A stretch of DNA of 37,634 nucleotides from contig CALYTW010000007.1 in the NCBI GenBank assembly GCA_945487905.1, positions 1 to 37,634 on the forward strand, in the 5' to 3' direction. The stretch comes from an uncultured cyanobacterium. GTDB lineage: Bacteria; Cyanobacteriota; Vampirovibrionia; Gastranaerophilales; Gastranaerophilaceae. The translations under genes and the position numbers were made by a program. A model generated the notes under the pieces. It did no database searches, was not told the origin of the DNA, and saw only the letters and a program-made list of their open reading frames with translations. Below, piece after piece: positions 13,297-19,615 of this stretch; position 1 is the first letter of the stretch; each line of letters opens with the position of its first letter.

Positions 13297-14565
13297 ATGT
13301 CAAGATTCGTTGGACTTATAGGTATAGTCGTTATATTTTTGCTTTGTTATTTAATGTCAAATAACAAGAAGGCCATAAATTACAAAACGGTCGGCATGGG
13401 ATTTCTATTACAGGTTTCTCTGGCTATATTTATATTCAAAGTTCCTTTAGGGCAGAAAATGTTTTTTCTGATAGGCGCTTTTATCAGAAAAATTCTTGAA
13501 TTTGCTTATGAAGGCGGAAATTTTGTTTTTGGACCTTTGCTGAACAACTCAAGACTCGCCGAACTATTCGGGAATAATTACAGTGTTTTTGCATTGCAGT
13601 TAATCTGCTCGACAATCTTTATGATGGTGCTGGTAAATATTTTGTATTATTACGGAATAATGCAAAGGGTTGTTGCAGGTTTAGGCAAAGCTATGAACAA
13701 GGTTATGAAAGTATCCGGAGCAGAAGCTCTTTCCAATGTCGCAAGTGCTTTTGTTGGACAGATTGTAGCACAAATTATGATTAAACCTTATTTGGAAAAA
13801 CTTACACGCTCGGAGCTGTTGGCTTCTATGGCAGGTTCAATGGCTTGTATATCCGGTGCAATAATGCCAATCTATATAGGAATGGGGATTCCGGCTCACT
13901 ATCTGCTGGCTTCTTCTGTTATGGCAGCCCCAGGTGCGTTAATTCTTTCTAAAATTGTTTATCCAGAAACTGGCGAACCTGAAACAAGAGATAATATAAG
14001 AGTTTCAAGACGAAGAACTTTTGCAAATGTTTTTGACGGTATTTCGAACGGTGCCTCCGAAGGAATGAAAGTTGCAATAAATGTTACAGCAATGATTCTT
14101 GCTCTCGTTGCTCTGGTTGCATTTATCGATTGGGGTTTGGGACTTGCCGGAGGATTTTTATATTCTCATGTTGCGGGATGCTCTCACTGCACATTTTTAT
14201 CACATTTATCGTTGAAATTGATTTTAGGCAAAGTCTTTGCTCTATTTGCTTTGATAATAGGTGTTCCCTTGCCGGATATCTCTACTGTCGGAGCTTTAAT
14301 GGGAACTAAAATAGTTTTGAATGAAATGGTTGCTTATGTTGATTTATCTCATATAGCTTCAACCTTAAATCCTAAAAGCTTTATGCTGGCTTGTTTTGCT
14401 TTATGCTCGTTCGGCAACTTCGGCTCTATAGCAATTCAAATTGGCGGTATCGGAGAGCTTGCACCTAACCAGAGAAAAAATTTAGCACGCCTGAGCATTA
14501 GAGCATTGATTTGCGGGACACTGAGCTGTTATATGTCGGCTGCTATCGTCGGAGTCTTGTTATAA
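13297..14565 (+). CDS. nupC: NupC-family concentrative nucleoside transporter
   Basis: A 422-residue inner-membrane protein of the concentrative nucleoside transporter (CNT) family, which imports nucleosides with Na+ or H+. Family blocks include the N-terminal GFLLQVSLAIFIFKVPLG, GNFVFGPLL, the core FVGQIVAQIMIKPYLEKLTRSEL, and GSMACISGAIMPIYIGMG. Nine or so hydrophobic segments are visible along its length. AAAGGAGAG lies just before ATG 13297. It follows gcvPA by 11 bases and is probably co-transcribed with it, an odd pairing unless nucleoside salvage is co-regulated with one-carbon supply. Its stop overlaps the convergent small gene by six bases. Confidence 0.93.
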   Translation: MSRFVGLIGIVVIFLLCYLMSNNKKAINYKTVGMGFLLQVSLAIFIFKVPLGQKMFFLIGAFIRKILEFAYEGGNFVFGPLLNNSRLAELFGNNYSVFALQLICSTIFMMVLVNILYYYGIMQRVVAGLGKAMNKVMKVSGAEALSNVASAFVGQIVAQIMIKPYLEKLTRSELLASMAGSMACISGAIMPIYIGMGIPAHYLLASSVMAAPGALILSKIVYPETGEPETRDNIRVSRRRTFANVFDGISNGASEGMKVAINVTAMILALVALVAFIDWGLGLAGGFLYSHVAGCSHCTFLSHLSLKLILGKVFALFALIIGVPLPDISTVGALMGTKIVLNEMVAYVDLSHIASTLNPKSFMLACFALCSFGNFGSIAIQIGGIGELAPNQRKNLARLSIRALICGTLSCYMSAAIVGVLL

Positions 14566-14826
14566 GCCGTTTATTGCGTTTTCAATGTTTGTATTCAGAG
14601 CAATTACGTTGCATACCTTATCCAGAGCAATATCCAGCATATCTATATACTGGCTTCTTTCTTCGCTCAGGGTAAACTTATATTCCGGCGGTAAATCATA
14701 ATATTTGGCCGAATTTTCTCGTTCAAGACATGATGCCTGAGTTGTTTTAATAATGCTTTTTAAACACAATAGCTGATTAATAGAATCTTCGCAAAAATTT
14801 TGTAAATTTAAGCTGTTATTTGACAC
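14560..14826 (-). CDS. Small unknown protein (88 residues)
   Basis: I do not recognise this protein. It is probably all helical, with two amphipathic stretches (about 5-30 and 50-85), three cysteines and no membrane segment. I place the start at GTG 14826 because GGAGG (14835-14839) is eight bases upstream. The in-frame ATG at 14841 overlaps that ribosome-binding site and is less likely. The gene is convergent with nupC and overlaps its stop by six bases. It lies between nupC and the DUF262-like gene, 166 bases downstream of the latter with a terminator-like hairpin between, so it seems to be its own unit. Confidence 0.6.
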   Translation of the reverse strand: MSNNSLNLQNFCEDSINQLLCLKSIIKTTQASCLERENSAKYYDLPPEYKFTLSEERSQYIDMLDIALDKVCNVIALNTNIENAINGL

Positions 14827-14943
14827 GATAAAAACCTCCATTCAATAATACTTTACTCTGCTTTAGCCTTTGGTAAGAGTATTATATCAGGTTCTAAAAA
14901 AATAACTTCAATATATTTTCCAATTAACAAAAATTTACAATGG

Positions 14944-14992: not shown

Positions 14993-16087
14993 TTATTTAT
15001 ATGCAATAAATGCATTTAAGTATTTTATCAACTCATTAAAGCTGACATCGTTCTGAGATTTTTCCCTGTTTTGCAGATATTCTTTAACAGCCGATAAAAT
15101 TTCCAAAAATGTTGCTTGAGAAAGATTACCATCATCATAATCTTCATAAACACTCAGCAAATATGCGAATGTGTCTTCGCAGTCATAGAATTTCAACTGA
15201 ATAAGCCCGTTTCTTATGTCTTTGTCGGGAATATCAACATTTATAAGCTGTAAATATAATTCTGAAGAATGTTTTATTTTTGCTAAAATTTCTTGACCTT
15301 TTGAATATTTGCTCATCGTTTCAAAATAATTTACAAAGTACTCATAAAGCATATTTTCATTGAACTCTTTATAATTAAATTTGTTCTGAAAAAAATCCTT
15401 AAAAAACAGTTTTATATCAGCAGTTTTGTTTTTGTATATTTCCTTAATCTCGTTCCATATTTTTTTATACTCCGCTTTACTCAAATAATCTTCAATTAAA
15501 AGAATATGATTAAGCTCACGTTTGTTATGATTAAGCGAATAATACAGGTCTCTCGGACTTACATACTCAGTGGCTACAACAGTTACCGTTATTTTTTCAA
15601 GCATACCGAAAATATGCGAAGCTTGAAGGCGGTTTTCTTTTATATCAACCCAAAAATTATGCAAAAGAACAAACATCGGGTTTTCTTTTTCTTTTCCGGA
15701 AAGCCTTTCGCCGTATATTATCTTATCATAGACATTCTGCATATTTTTAGGCAGACGAAGTTTTGTTTTTGTGTTATTAAGCAAATATTTCTTACGGATA
15801 GTTCTTATTGCTTTATCATTTTTATCAGACGTCTTTTTATAACATTCACAAATAGCGTGAAGAAGCAAAGACAAAGAAAGCAGTCTGCTTAATCCGTCAA
15901 CAACAATGCTTTTTTCCGAGGTAATTTCTTTTAAGTAAACTATTCCCAAATCAATCCGCTGTACAAAATCTTCTTCTACAGAGATTAAATCCAGAAAATT
16001 AACCAGCTTTGAATCACATTTTGCGTAATCCAAAGCGGATAAGTTTTTTGTATTGTGCAATAATTCAAGTAAATTTTTTACTTCCAT
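14993..16087 (-). CDS. Degenerate DUF262 (GmrSD-N / ParB-like) protein
   Basis: A 364-residue protein whose layout matches the DUF262 domain of GmrSD type IV restriction enzymes and SspE. A hydrophobic segment with VVDGLSRLLSLSLLLHAI (62-79) stands where DUF262 has DGQQRLTTL. It is followed by a helical region and then DLYYSLNHNKRELNHILLIEDYL (180-202), corresponding to the family's FxxLNxxGxxLxxxDLIK block. Two catalytic-motif residues are lost (DGQQR becomes Asp64-Gly-Leu-Ser-Arg68). The N-terminal IPxYQRxYxW motif is absent, and there is no C-terminal HNH (DUF1524) nuclease domain. A nuclease or NTPase role is therefore doubtful, and a binding or regulatory role is more likely. ATG 16087 is three bases after the stop of the winged-helix gene, suggesting coupled expression. 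The family call is moderate; the function is unknown. Confidence 0.6.
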   Translation of the reverse strand: MEVKNLLELLHNTKNLSALDYAKCDSKLVNFLDLISVEEDFVQRIDLGIVYLKEITSEKSIVVDGLSRLLSLSLLLHAICECYKKTSDKNDKAIRTIRKKYLLNNTKTKLRLPKNMQNVYDKIIYGERLSGKEKENPMFVLLHNFWVDIKENRLQASHIFGMLEKITVTVVATEYVSPRDLYYSLNHNKRELNHILLIEDYLSKAEYKKIWNEIKEIYKNKTADIKLFFKDFFQNKFNYKEFNENMLYEYFVNYFETMSKYSKGQEILAKIKHSSELYLQLINVDIPDKDIRNGLIQLKFYDCEDTFAYLLSVYEDYDDGNLSQATFLEILSAVKEYLQNREKSQNDVSFNELIKYLNAFIAYK

Positions 16088-16090
16088 TGA

Positions 16091-16741
16091 CTACTCGGTT
16101 AATATAAAACCTCCGGAGGGAACATTTTTCAGCTTGTCTCCTTCGATTTTAGCTCTCAGATTTTTAATATATTTGTATACATAATCTCTCGGCAATTCCA
16201 AAAGTTCCGCCAAATCTTTAGCAAAAACAGGCTTGCCGATATTGTTTAAAAAGTATTCAAACACCATTTGTTCTCTGTCAGTCAAGGACTTTTTAAGAAC
16301 TATATTGATATCAGAATGAGATGAGAATTCTTCGACACTGTCAAGCAAAGACTTTTCATCCTTCGGAATCACTGTTTCTTTTTTAACGGAATCAGTATCT
16401 GCATTAATGTCCGAAGTCTTTTTAGAAACAATTTCCTTTGCCGTTAGCACTGTTTCTTCAGTTTTTACAGCCGCTTTCATTCCCTTTTTGTTTATGGAAA
16501 ACGGTGTGTGCGTAAGCTGTCTTTCTCTTGCGAAAGCTCTTTCCGCAATCGCCGAAAATCCGTCGCTTATATTATTAGTATTTGAAGAAGTACCTTTGGA
16601 CATTACAATATCAACAACATCATTCGTCGATTTACTCTCTTCTACTGTTTTCCCCAATCTCGCCGCATATTCCTCAAGCGTTATCTTCTCTAAAGAACTT
16701 CTCCACTGTCTTATTTCTTCCTTTGTCAAATAATTAGGCAT
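16091..16741 (-). CDS. Winged-helix DNA-binding protein with disordered middle
   Basis: A 216-residue protein. The N-terminus (about 1-46) is helical, with TLEEYAARLGKTVEES. A long Ser/Thr/Lys-rich, probably disordered linker covers about 47-145. The last 65 residues form an OmpR/PhoB-like winged helix: LTDREQMVFEYFLNN, AKDLAELLELPRDYVYKYI as turn and recognition helix, LRAKIEGDKLK, and a C-terminal PSGGFIL wing strand. There is no receiver domain, so it is not a normal response regulator. AGGAGA is eight bases upstream of ATG 16741. It is followed after three bases by the DUF262-like gene. It is separated from the SPOR gene upstream by 129 bases with a TATAAA-like box, so this pair may have its own promoter. 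Confidence 0.6.
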   Translation of the reverse strand: MPNYLTKEEIRQWRSSLEKITLEEYAARLGKTVEESKSTNDVVDIVMSKGTSSNTNNISDGFSAIAERAFARERQLTHTPFSINKKGMKAAVKTEETVLTAKEIVSKKTSDINADTDSVKKETVIPKDEKSLLDSVEEFSSHSDINIVLKKSLTDREQMVFEYFLNNIGKPVFAKDLAELLELPRDYVYKYIKNLRAKIEGDKLKNVPSGGFILTE

Positions 16742-16870
16742 CCAACATCTCCTATATTATGTGTGATAGTCTGTTATAATCCCCGTAATGGACTTCATAT
16801 TTTATAATGTACCACAAAACTTTTAAAATTATTCAAAATGTTTCGTGATGTAAAGATTTCTTTATAAAAA

Positions 16871-17464
16871 TTAATTCTCCTCCACAATCCTGCCCGGCAG
16901 GTGGTTTTGCTGAATTGTGGAAAGCAGTGTTTCCGCTCCGGTTTTGTTCTTAAAAATACCGACCTGAAGCGTGTAATCATTAGAACCTATACATTTTACT
17001 ATCGGATTCAGACCCAGTCCGGTTTCTTGAATAATATCTTTTGCAACTTTTGCCTGTTCAGCAGAAGTATAAGTTCCTATATAAACTTTGAACACCGAAT
17101 CTGCGGAAACTGCAGGAATCTGAGGTGCAGATTCTGCCTTGCTGAGAACGCTTGATTTTTCCGAATGCCCGCTTTCTGACGAATCTATCTGAATATCATC
17201 GGCTCTTTTCATTAAATCAGCAAAATCACTTACTCTGTCCTCATCTTGAATTGCGGAAAGTCTGTCATCAACATTGATTGCCATTTCCGGTTCAGACTCT
17301 TGTTTGTAATCTCCGATAGAAACATCTACCGAAGGAGAAAAAGATTTGATAAGCACTGTGAACACTAAAAGCATGCCGAAAAACGAAATGATAAACAAAT
17401 GTATGAGCGAATAATCTCTCTTTTTAGCGCTTTTTTTCATATATTTTTTGTAAGTTCCTGCCAT
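16871..17464 (-). CDS. Membrane-anchored SPOR-domain protein
   Basis: A 197-residue protein. A basic cytoplasmic N-terminus (KKYMKKSAKKRD) is followed by one transmembrane helix (about 19-42). A polar acidic linker with many Ser/Asp/Glu covers about 45-120. The C-terminal SPOR domain (about 124-195) contains FKVYIGTYTSAEQAKVA and YTLQVGIFKNKTGAETLL, the two repeats of that fold. SPOR domains bind denuded glycan strands of peptidoglycan and usually bring proteins to the division site. The start is ATG 17464, one base after the DUF366 stop, with GGGGGG about nine bases upstream. It is probably in one operon with queC and the HEAT gene, which gives no direct clue to its job. Confidence 0.8.
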   Translation of the reverse strand: MAGTYKKYMKKSAKKRDYSLIHLFIISFFGMLLVFTVLIKSFSPSVDVSIGDYKQESEPEMAINVDDRLSAIQDEDRVSDFADLMKRADDIQIDSSESGHSEKSSVLSKAESAPQIPAVSADSVFKVYIGTYTSAEQAKVAKDIIQETGLGLNPIVKCIGSNDYTLQVGIFKNKTGAETLLSTIQQNHLPGRIVEEN

Positions 17465-17465
17465 C

Positions 17466-18020
17466 CTAAACCCCCCGAACCTTTGTTCCGGCAAGAATTA
17501 CGTCTTCAATTTCTTCCGTATATCTTTTCATAACCTCCAATCCAAACGCTTTGATATCAGTTATTCCAAGCTCGCTGGTTAATCCGGATGCTTTGACTGG
17601 CGCACCTTCTGATAAAATATTTAAACCTGTGTGAATCAGTATGGAAGTCGTTGATTTTGTAGCAATAGAAACAGACAATTTACCACCGTCAACAATTAAA
17701 TCGTCCCCTTTCCTTGTCACAAAAATTCCCTTTTCTTCAAGTAATTCTTTAATTATACACATTAAAAGCCTTTGTCTGAAAACGCCTTCTGTTAAGCCTA
17801 TTCCATACTGTTCCGATATAAAACTCAGCATATATTTGCTGTATATAGGCTCGTTGTTTATAACATCCTCTATATCAACCATTTCCGTCAGTTTTACTTC
17901 GCATTCTCCGATAAAAGCAACTATTGCATCTCCTTGAATCTTAAAATTTTTATAAATCCAATGCGGTGCAAGTTGTGAACCTATATATTTAATTTCCTCG
18001 TCTATAAATTTACTTCTCAT
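17466..18020 (-). CDS. DUF366-like protein
   Basis: A 184-residue soluble protein that I match, from memory, to the DUF366 family, which is spread over archaea and thermophilic bacteria and has no assigned function. Recognisable stretches are YIGSQLAPHWIY (12-23), QGDAIVAFIGECEV near 30-42, MVDIEDVINNEPIYS, and a Gly/Asp core KGDDLIVDGGKLSVSIAT. The last of these looks like a beta-hairpin nucleotide or metal site, but that is a guess. ATG 18020 lies inside the end of queC (11-base overlap), with no good ribosome-binding site, so translation is probably coupled. The partnership with queC suggests, but does not prove, a link to 7-deazapurine metabolism. Confidence 0.6.
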   Translation of the reverse strand: MRSKFIDEEIKYIGSQLAPHWIYKNFKIQGDAIVAFIGECEVKLTEMVDIEDVINNEPIYSKYMLSFISEQYGIGLTEGVFRQRLLMCIIKELLEEKGIFVTRKGDDLIVDGGKLSVSIATKSTTSILIHTGLNILSEGAPVKASGLTSELGITDIKAFGLEVMKRYTEEIEDVILAGTKVRGV

Positions 18021-18693
18021 TTTCAAATAATATATTTAAGTATCTTTCACATTGATTTGTAATAAGTGCTTTTTTTAAATTATTGCACGATTCGCATTTA
18101 CCGCAGTGTTTACTCCCCTTGTTATAACAACTCCATACAAACTCTAACGGAACGGAATCCCTAACTGCAATTCTTACTATATCATCCTTGTTATAATTTA
18201 TCAAGGGGGCTGTAACCTCGGGATGTACAAGGGTTGAGGTTTTGAACAAATCCGAAACCTTTTTTCTGAAGTTTTCTGTATTATCGGGAAAAGTCTCTCC
18301 TTCCTCCTTGTTACCGCCATATATTATATATTCATAACCAATTGCATCACAAAAACTCCCTGCTATATTCAAAAAAAGAGCGTTCCGATTCGGAACCCAA
18401 ACGGAAGAAGCACTTTCAGGGGTATGAAAATTTGTTTCCGGTATCATATTTTCGGAAACAAGCCCTGTTTTTGTGATTTCCTTTAACCAATCAAGTGTTA
18501 TTACCTTATGACGGATTCCATAGTAATGACATATTTTTGCCGATGTTTCAATTTCTTTTTCCGCAGATTTTTGCCCGTAATCAAAAGTCAGTGCTAGTAA
18601 TACATCATAGTTCAGATGTTTTATCGAATAGTCAAGCGCTACAAGAGAATCCAACCCGCCGGAAAGTAATATTAATGCTTTATGTTTATTCAT
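18010..18693 (-). CDS. queC: QueC, 7-cyano-7-deazaguanine (preQ0) synthase
   Basis: QueC converts 7-carboxy-7-deazaguanine to preQ0 using ATP and ammonia, on the route to queuosine in tRNA. It has 227 residues. The PP-loop LLSGGLDSLVAL (Ser11-Gly-Gly-Leu-Asp-Ser16) is intact, as is TFDYGQKSAEKE. The zinc site CX7CX2CX2C is Cys189, Cys197, Cys200 and Cys203 (SKHCGKCESC). VWVPNRNALFLNIA and NKEEGETFPDNT are typical. The start is ATG 18693, which overlaps the HEAT gene stop by eight bases and has GAGG eight bases upstream. The other queuosine genes (queD, queE, queF) are not in the window. Confidence 0.94.
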   Translation of the reverse strand: MNKHKALILLSGGLDSLVALDYSIKHLNYDVLLALTFDYGQKSAEKEIETSAKICHYYGIRHKVITLDWLKEITKTGLVSENMIPETNFHTPESASSVWVPNRNALFLNIAGSFCDAIGYEYIIYGGNKEEGETFPDNTENFRKKVSDLFKTSTLVHPEVTAPLINYNKDDIVRIAVRDSVPLEFVWSCYNKGSKHCGKCESCNNLKKALITNQCERYLNILFENEK

Positions 18694-19615
18694 CCAAATC
18701 CTCATATTCACTTATTATTTCTTTTGCCTCGGTTTTTAAGAATTCCGAATATATAGGAAGTTCTATTACTTCATCCAGTATATCTCTGCCCGAAAGGTTG
18801 TATAAAGCAATTAAAGCATTCCTTTTAACTTCGTCGTCTTCATCCTGTAGACACGGTTTGATTAATTCTGCGGAATTTTCTTCCTCACTGTTCATAATTG
18901 CTTCTATTGCATTAATTCTAACAATTGAAGAAGAATCCATGAGTGAACTTTTTAAAGCTTTTAAAACTTTTTTGTTGTTTAAGTTTAGTTTACCGAGAGC
19001 TTCAACAATTTTTTCCTTCAAGAATGTAAATTTGTCCAAAAAACCCTGTTTTGATTCAAGGATTGCAACAAGCGGTTCAATAGCGCTCGTATCGCCCAAC
19101 AGTCCTAGTGCGAAGGTCGCTGACTCTTTCAAATAAACCGACTTTTCTTCATCATCCTCTACCAAATCCAGCAAAGGTTTTACCGCATACCGATCTCCAA
19201 TTCGTCCGAGCGCATCGGCACAAGCAAGACGCACCTTGTAGTTTTCTTTCTTGTTATTCATACAGTTCAGAAGTGCAGTAACTGTCGATGTGTCTTTATA
19301 ATTGGCTATTGTTCTGACACACATTGTACGCACATTTATAAAACTCTCATTATCCTCATCCGATTTAAATTGAAGCATCTCCAGCAGAATAGAAAGGGTT
19401 GTTTCAGCATGATGTTCATCCGTAAGCTTTATGACCTGAATAAGAATTTCAGGATCTTCTACGTTTAGCAGAAAATAATTATATATACTTACAAGTTCAG
19501 CTTCGTTATAAAGCACCTCTAAGTTAGCGATTTTCTTTACAACCAAACTTGAAGTTAATTTGCCGACCCCGCAATCAGAAAGAATAGAATTATAATCCAA
19601 CACCTTATTATCCAC
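18686..19615 (-). CDS. HEAT-repeat protein
   Basis: A 309-residue, all-helical protein with no signal or membrane segment. Repeats of about 31 residues are visible from about 95 to 300. Examples are ACADALGRIGDRYAVKPLLDLVED, the SATFALGLLGDTSAIEPLVAILES unit and the later VRINAIEAIM and VKRNALIALYNL units. These are PBS-lyase/HEAT-type repeats, which usually make a protein-binding solenoid; in cyanobacterial relatives the same repeat occurs in phycobilin lyases. The start is GTG 19615, the first in-frame start after a TAG, with no strong ribosome-binding site. It is the first gene of the queC operon. The partner is unknown. Confidence 0.75.
   Translation of the reverse strand: MDNKVLDYNSILSDCGVGKLTSSLVVKKIANLEVLYNEAELVSIYNYFLLNVEDPEILIQVIKLTDEHHAETTLSILLEMLQFKSDEDNESFINVRTMCVRTIANYKDTSTVTALLNCMNNKKENYKVRLACADALGRIGDRYAVKPLLDLVEDDEEKSVYLKESATFALGLLGDTSAIEPLVAILESKQGFLDKFTFLKEKIVEALGKLNLNNKKVLKALKSSLMDSSSIVRINAIEAIMNSEEENSAELIKPCLQDEDDEVKRNALIALYNLSGRDILDEVIELPIYSEFLKTEAKEIISEYEDLDE

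Follow-up and report, generated by a model that had tools for sequence, protein, structure and literature searches.

The window, which is the whole stretch of DNA that was analysed (37,634 nucleotides), is a contig from a Candidatus Gastranaerophilales genome of 1.66 Mb that is 97% complete. Two neighbouring genes, here termed wHTH and D262, lie on its reverse strand behind a putative promoter of their own (Table 1). The stop codon of wHTH and the start codon of D262 are three bases apart, so the two-gene unit described in the sequence-only reading of this DNA is confirmed. The genus sample that was searched comprised 58 species, and metagenomes of the rumen and other gut sites are the main source of the named relatives. 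A literature search found no paper describing either protein in Gastranaerophilales.

Table 1. Features of the wHTH-D262 locus, in positions of the window.
Feature	Position	Strand	Basis or remark
wHTH regulator gene, 216 aa	16091..16741	(-)	N-terminal block, disordered linker and OmpR-type winged helix, without receiver
D262 gene, nuclease-free DUF262-type, 364 aa	14993..16087	(-)	ORF, model, profile and structure matches
wHTH N-terminal conserved block, residues 1-45, YLTKEEIRQWRSSLEKITLEEYAARLGK...	16607..16741	(-)	Two predicted helices
wHTH C-terminal OmpR/PhoB-type winged helix, residues 150-216	16094..16294	(-)	pLDDT, structural matches
D262 DGLSR, residues 64-68, counterpart of the DGQQR NTPase motif	15884..15898	(-)	D, G and R kept
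D262 HAICEC, residues 77-82, start of a segment that only the wHTH-linked clade conserves	15842..15859	(-)	
D262 C-terminal all-helical domain, residues 191-364	14996..15517	(-)	Model secondary structure, DndI alignment
21-bp promoter box TTTACATCACGAAACATTTTG, candidate wHTH autoregulatory operator	16834..16854	(-)	Conserved
Extended -10 element TGgTACATT, promoter of the pair	16806..16814	(-)	TG.TA.AtT columns conserved

The AlphaFold model of the wHTH protein has a confidently predicted C-terminal winged helix (pLDDT about 90 or more), two short helices at the N-terminus (pLDDT 79-87 over residues 1-30), and a largely disordered middle in which pLDDT falls below 50 at residues 39-57 and 93-134. 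OmpR/PhoB DNA-binding domains are among its best structural matches: the C-terminal region was aligned with PhoP, DrrB, DrrD and YycF with a Foldseek probability of 1.00, at 1.7-2.3 Å and E values of 0.008-0.04. In the Pfam scan the match to PF00486 stayed below the cut-off (E 0.0039), and NCBIfam returned nothing useful for wHTH or D262. The winged helix is the one found at the C-terminus of OmpR/PhoB response regulators, the cyanobacterial RpaA and RpaB included. Unlike these regulators, wHTH has a unique N-terminal block and a disordered linker and lacks a receiver; no receiver domain with a phospho-Asp was found in the Pfam scan, and the N-terminus is made up of the two short helices and disorder. 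Structural matches, low-confidence stretches and the domain scan thus all agree with the initial description of an OmpR-like winged helix on a long disordered linker.

Comparison of 26 wHTH sequences from several families revealed 31 invariant columns. There are two conserved blocks, the N-terminal one and the winged helix, and the linker between them varies freely. The idea that the N-terminal block is a shared module was rejected, since the genome holds a single copy with no second match. A linker motif, ERERQ.SHTPFSI, was likewise rejected as a D262-binding site, since similar motifs occur in genera that have no D262. The wHTH gene is single-copy, and its profile found it in 233 of the 237 genomes of the order that are at least 95% complete, representing 39 of 41 genera. 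In other orders and classes it was not found, the matches there being marginal (E 0.002-0.009). Because it is near-universal in the order and was not detected elsewhere beyond those marginal matches, wHTH is a core protein specific to this lineage, independent of D262.

The AlphaFold (AF2) model of D262 has a pLDDT of 89.7. Its residues 1-363 were aligned with residues 5-434 of DndI (PDB 9JFL, of IscS-DndBCDE-DndI) at Z 18.1 and rmsd 7.0 over 348 residues; SspE followed at Z 13.9, and BrxU reached Z 5.5, where unrelated structures start at Z 7.5. Structure prediction, put forward earlier as a check, therefore assigns D262 to the DUF262 (ParB/Srx) superfamily: like DndI and SspE, it has an N-terminal DUF262 fold followed by a helical domain, the latter being equivalent to the region that links DUF262 and DUF1524 in those proteins. 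DndI is a protein of 596 aa with an HNH motif in its C-terminal domain (PMC11662687), and the D262 model ends before this nuclease region. In the same way, the PADLOC profile Orf5 matched D262 with an E value of 1.1e-19, residues 59-343 corresponding to positions 63-359 of 543, and the match stops about 180 positions short of the profile end. The HNH domain PF07510 (DUF1524/GmrD) was absent from D262 and from all seven D262-bearing genomes searched, while control genomes were positive. Both the GmrSD/SspE-like layout and the missing HNH domain had been recognized in the sequence-only reading.

Sequence profiles recovered this relationship less directly. D262 shares GmrSD_N (PF03235) homology with the GmrSD/BrxU type IV restriction enzymes (PF03235 plus PF07510), but differs from them in lacking PF07510 and in having altered the near-universal DGQQR. 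In the window its GmrSD_N score, 17.0 bits, is below the gathering score of 33.2. Relatives with the same gene pair scored 37.9 (L137), 31 and 24 bits, and canonical short relatives in other families scored 94-121; through these scores the relatives bridge D262 to GmrSD_N. When the genus alignment of D262 was searched as a profile against the PDB, no relevant match emerged, and DndI and SspE were retrieved only after the canonical relatives had been added to the profile, or by structure. The canonical DUF262 relatives, from families f5, f6 and f7, have no HNH domain either. In three f6 loci (L063, L064, L065) such a gene is directly followed by one for a protein of 169-175 aa, which matches the P-mevalo_kinase and deoxynucleotide monophosphate kinase (DNMK-like) models. 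Elsewhere, in several genera (L199-L208), what was found of D262 is confined to its C-terminal helical half, in proteins of 185-240 aa encoded at other loci; in g46 and g47 these are encoded upstream of an ObgE-like gene. Neither full nor partial D262 was found in g31-g40.

The DGQQR counterpart reads DG[LVFIM][NSGKR]R in 55 of 56 sequences of the wHTH-linked clade, D-G-x-x-R being kept, so the reported change to DGLSR is characteristic of this clade. The conserved arginine is essential for hydrolysis in related proteins (R87 in DndI; R100 and R133 in SspE; PMC11662687, PMC13251355), and with it the D and G of the DndI and SspE motif are retained in D262; both glutamines are lost, QQ having become [LV][NS]. 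As initially observed, the IPxYQR motif is gone, and it is missing from the entire wHTH-linked clade. The corresponding region of DndI and SspE carries the tyrosine that senses phosphorothioate (PT; Y25 and Y30, respectively). The canonical relatives have kept IP.[FYW]QR (in one case ICTWQR) and DG[QK]QR. After the DGxxR motif, the wHTH-linked clade has a segment of its own, [HY][AS]ICE[CS][YFW]K.T, which is not conserved outside it.

The combined loss of the HNH domain, IPxYQR and QQ, together with the preservation of only the C-terminal half in other genera and of nothing detectable in g31-g40, could be taken as the decay of a GmrSD gene, of which D262 would be the relic. This is contradicted by selection: dN/dS in close pairs is 0.016-0.061, as in the housekeeping neighbours, a large set of residues is invariant among 56 sequences, and the frame is open in nearly all genomes. 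We consider decay extremely improbable. In one locus (L029, G043:C28:10870-11958) D262 has an in-frame TAG, which is a sequencing error, suppression or a recent pseudogene. Judged from these sequences, the motif change is a replacement and not decay, maintained by strong purifying selection. Since the altered motif is stable and dN/dS is low, the original description of D262 as eroded is not supported.

Both genes were found in 52 of the 58 genus genomes (52 to 54 of the 58 species), and in all 52 they are adjacent, which answers the earlier call to examine co-occurrence in relatives. With the DUF262 fold of D262 and this co-occurrence, neither of the two results that the initial reading had named as refuting it came about. 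Four of the remaining genomes lack both genes, and two have D262 ends only. In one of these four (G006, 94% complete) NupC and a gene of 93 aa are kept and the pair and DUF366 are missing, which could be a joint loss or an assembly gap. The distance between the two genes is 1-3 nt in 51 of 62 loci. The usual gene order is HEAT-QueC-DUF366-SPOR-wHTH-D262-(93 aa)-NupC-gcv, a housekeeping neighbourhood and not a defence island. The HEAT-QueC-DUF366-SPOR genes (16871-19615, reverse strand) are separated by overlaps or very short gaps, and their synteny holds throughout the genus; QueC and DUF366 are constantly linked, which suggests a role of DUF366 near 7-deazapurine metabolism. Downstream, the gene for the 93-aa protein (14560-14841, reverse strand) overlaps the 3' end of NupC, which is encoded on the other strand; its product is conserved within the genus and has no family match. 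The gene was rejected as a part of the unit, since it remains with NupC where the pair is missing.

Beyond the genus, the pair remains adjacent in g44, g48 and the group of L137, L139 and L140 at about 30% identity, in surroundings that otherwise vary. No D262 of the wHTH-linked form was seen apart from wHTH, and most other genera have wHTH without D262. Directly upstream of wHTH, many D262-less genera carry two tandem thymidylate-kinase-like genes (seen at L179, L181, L183 and L185-L188). The wHTH and D262 trees can be reconciled with a history in which the genes were paired once and then inherited vertically, with a loss in g31-g40; the key node of the wHTH tree is weakly supported (82/37). 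As to whether the pair is core or patchy, wHTH is core throughout the order and the pair is near-universal in the genus.

This distribution bears on the proposal that the two genes form an undescribed anti-phage module, in which D262 would sense phage DNA or nucleotides and wHTH would be the effector or controller. D262 is homologous to the defence proteins GmrSD, SspE and DndI, and Menshen, Dazbog and PD-T4-2, three systems directed against phage, include DUF262 proteins that lack DUF1524, in Menshen together with a predicted OLD nuclease (PMC10952713). D262 resembles the DUF262 proteins of these three systems in having no HNH domain of its own, but the pair has neither a nuclease partner nor a defence neighbourhood. 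None of the neighbours (HEAT, QueC, DUF366, SPOR, NupC, gcv) is a cognate partner from these systems, as judged for Dazbog and PD-T4-2 by the families of the neighbours. Likewise, D262 differs from DndI and SspE in being encoded in a housekeeping operon, near-universally in its genus, with the wHTH regulator as its partner. No nuclease was detected in cis or in trans in the seven D262-bearing genomes searched, tblastn found no viral relatives of D262, and the trees are compatible with vertical descent. A defence module, one of the options raised initially, is disfavoured by these findings, and we regard it as very improbable.

Upstream of wHTH, the box TTTACATCACGAAACATTTTG is followed after about 19 bp by the extended -10 element. 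The box is an imperfect direct repeat, ACAT...ACAT, with half-sites 10 bp apart, located at about -55 to -35 from the start inferred near 16799, which is the position expected for sites of the OmpR/PhoB family. Half-sites of the ACAT type at this spacing are also found in HLR1-type boxes such as TTACAAnnnnTTACAA (PMC6331805), a likeness that is one of resemblance only. Conservation of the box extends through the genus and to about a dozen further genera, D262-less ones among them. In ten D262-less loci it has a mean of 3.0 mismatches, compared to a median of 9.0 among the remaining upstream 21-mers and to 9.1 in shuffled sequence. It was not found at the g43, g45, g47, g49, g54 and g55 loci or in more distant families. 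In four genomes (G000, G052, G099, G203) the sole match at 0 or 1 mismatch is the wHTH promoter, and autoregulation of wHTH through the box is therefore the simplest reading that these sequences suggest. The genome also encodes two receiver-bearing OmpR-type regulators, which could be alternative binders of the box. A search for a regulon with up to 3 mismatches was not retained: the counts were similar to those of a reversed-pattern control, and ten weaker sites that were inspected lie mostly inside genes. We therefore claim no regulon beyond wHTH's own promoter, and for this reason the label "regulator" rests on the fold of the protein.

The arrangement of regulator gene first and putative effector second, tightly coupled and preceded by a candidate autoregulatory box, is also what one would expect if D262 were a toxin-like DUF262 protein that arrests growth and wHTH repressed it in the role of regulator or antitoxin. 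However, wHTH is a core gene that is retained without D262 in dozens of genera, D262 has no nuclease, and the pair is near-universal in the genus, with none of the patchiness and mobile or defence context of toxin-antitoxin systems and defence islands. An antitoxin role of wHTH is accordingly improbable in our estimation.

In the best-supported reading, D262 is a domesticated DUF262 module, free of nuclease, that works as an accessory to a core regulator specific to this lineage. That a defence-type sensor was domesticated into a regulatory unit had been among the initial suggestions, and this part stands; the emphasis does not. As wHTH is an order-wide single-copy core protein and most genera lack D262, wHTH is primary and D262 accessory, and D262 is not decaying. 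D262 must also be dispensable for the general role of wHTH, given that most genera have wHTH without it and that the box is conserved there too. More specifically, the two genes may form one transcription unit with its own promoter, consisting of core regulator and accessory, in which the domesticated D262 modulates wHTH; we put the chances of this at about even.

Mechanistically, wHTH would bind the conserved tandem box just upstream of the -10 element and control its own operon. D262 may act as a domesticated sensor or adaptor whose remodelled pocket binds a nucleotide or some other ligand bearing phosphate, and a full NTPase cycle would probably not take place. Its helical domain would then modulate wHTH, so that D262 stands in for the absent receiver in the lineages that carry it. 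The loss of IPxYQR and of the two DGQQR glutamines counts against such ligand binding. The notion that D262 may act on wHTH is derived from their conserved coupling. Against a direct link stands the mirror-tree comparison of the two proteins, which gave no correlation in excess of that of neighbouring genes (residual correlation 0.16, rank 11 of 21 gene pairs).

The same observation is in keeping with a shared operon but separate mechanisms, where D262 would be an independent housekeeping protein that binds nucleotides or hydrolyses NTP and is co-transcribed or dosage-matched with wHTH. The independence of wHTH from D262 in most genera and the retention of DGxxR fit this alternative, as do the canonical nuclease-free relatives in other families, which sit away from wHTH and, in f6, beside the gene for the DNMK-like kinase. 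It does not readily account for the adjacency and the 1-3 nt gap, which survive divergence to about 30% identity while the neighbourhood changes. We find separate mechanisms rather unlikely, though more probable than the other alternatives. We further propose, tentatively, that a sensor domain from a DUF262 restriction enzyme may have become the subunit that senses a ligand for an OmpR-type core regulator without receiver, forming a one-component-like signalling pair that replaces receiver and histidine kinase.

Our findings shift the description of this locus from an eroded defence protein to a core regulator of the lineage, accompanied by a nuclease-free DUF262 accessory that has been stably repurposed. 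As a single-copy, order-wide transcription-factor-like protein, wHTH is a candidate marker and a candidate master regulator of an uncultured gut lineage related to cyanobacteria. D262 is a clear case of an NTPase module from phage defence that, having shed its nuclease and altered its active-site motif, came under strong purifying selection within a housekeeping operon. Should D262 indeed sense a nucleotide on behalf of wHTH, the pair would offer a concrete and testable path from defence protein to regulator.
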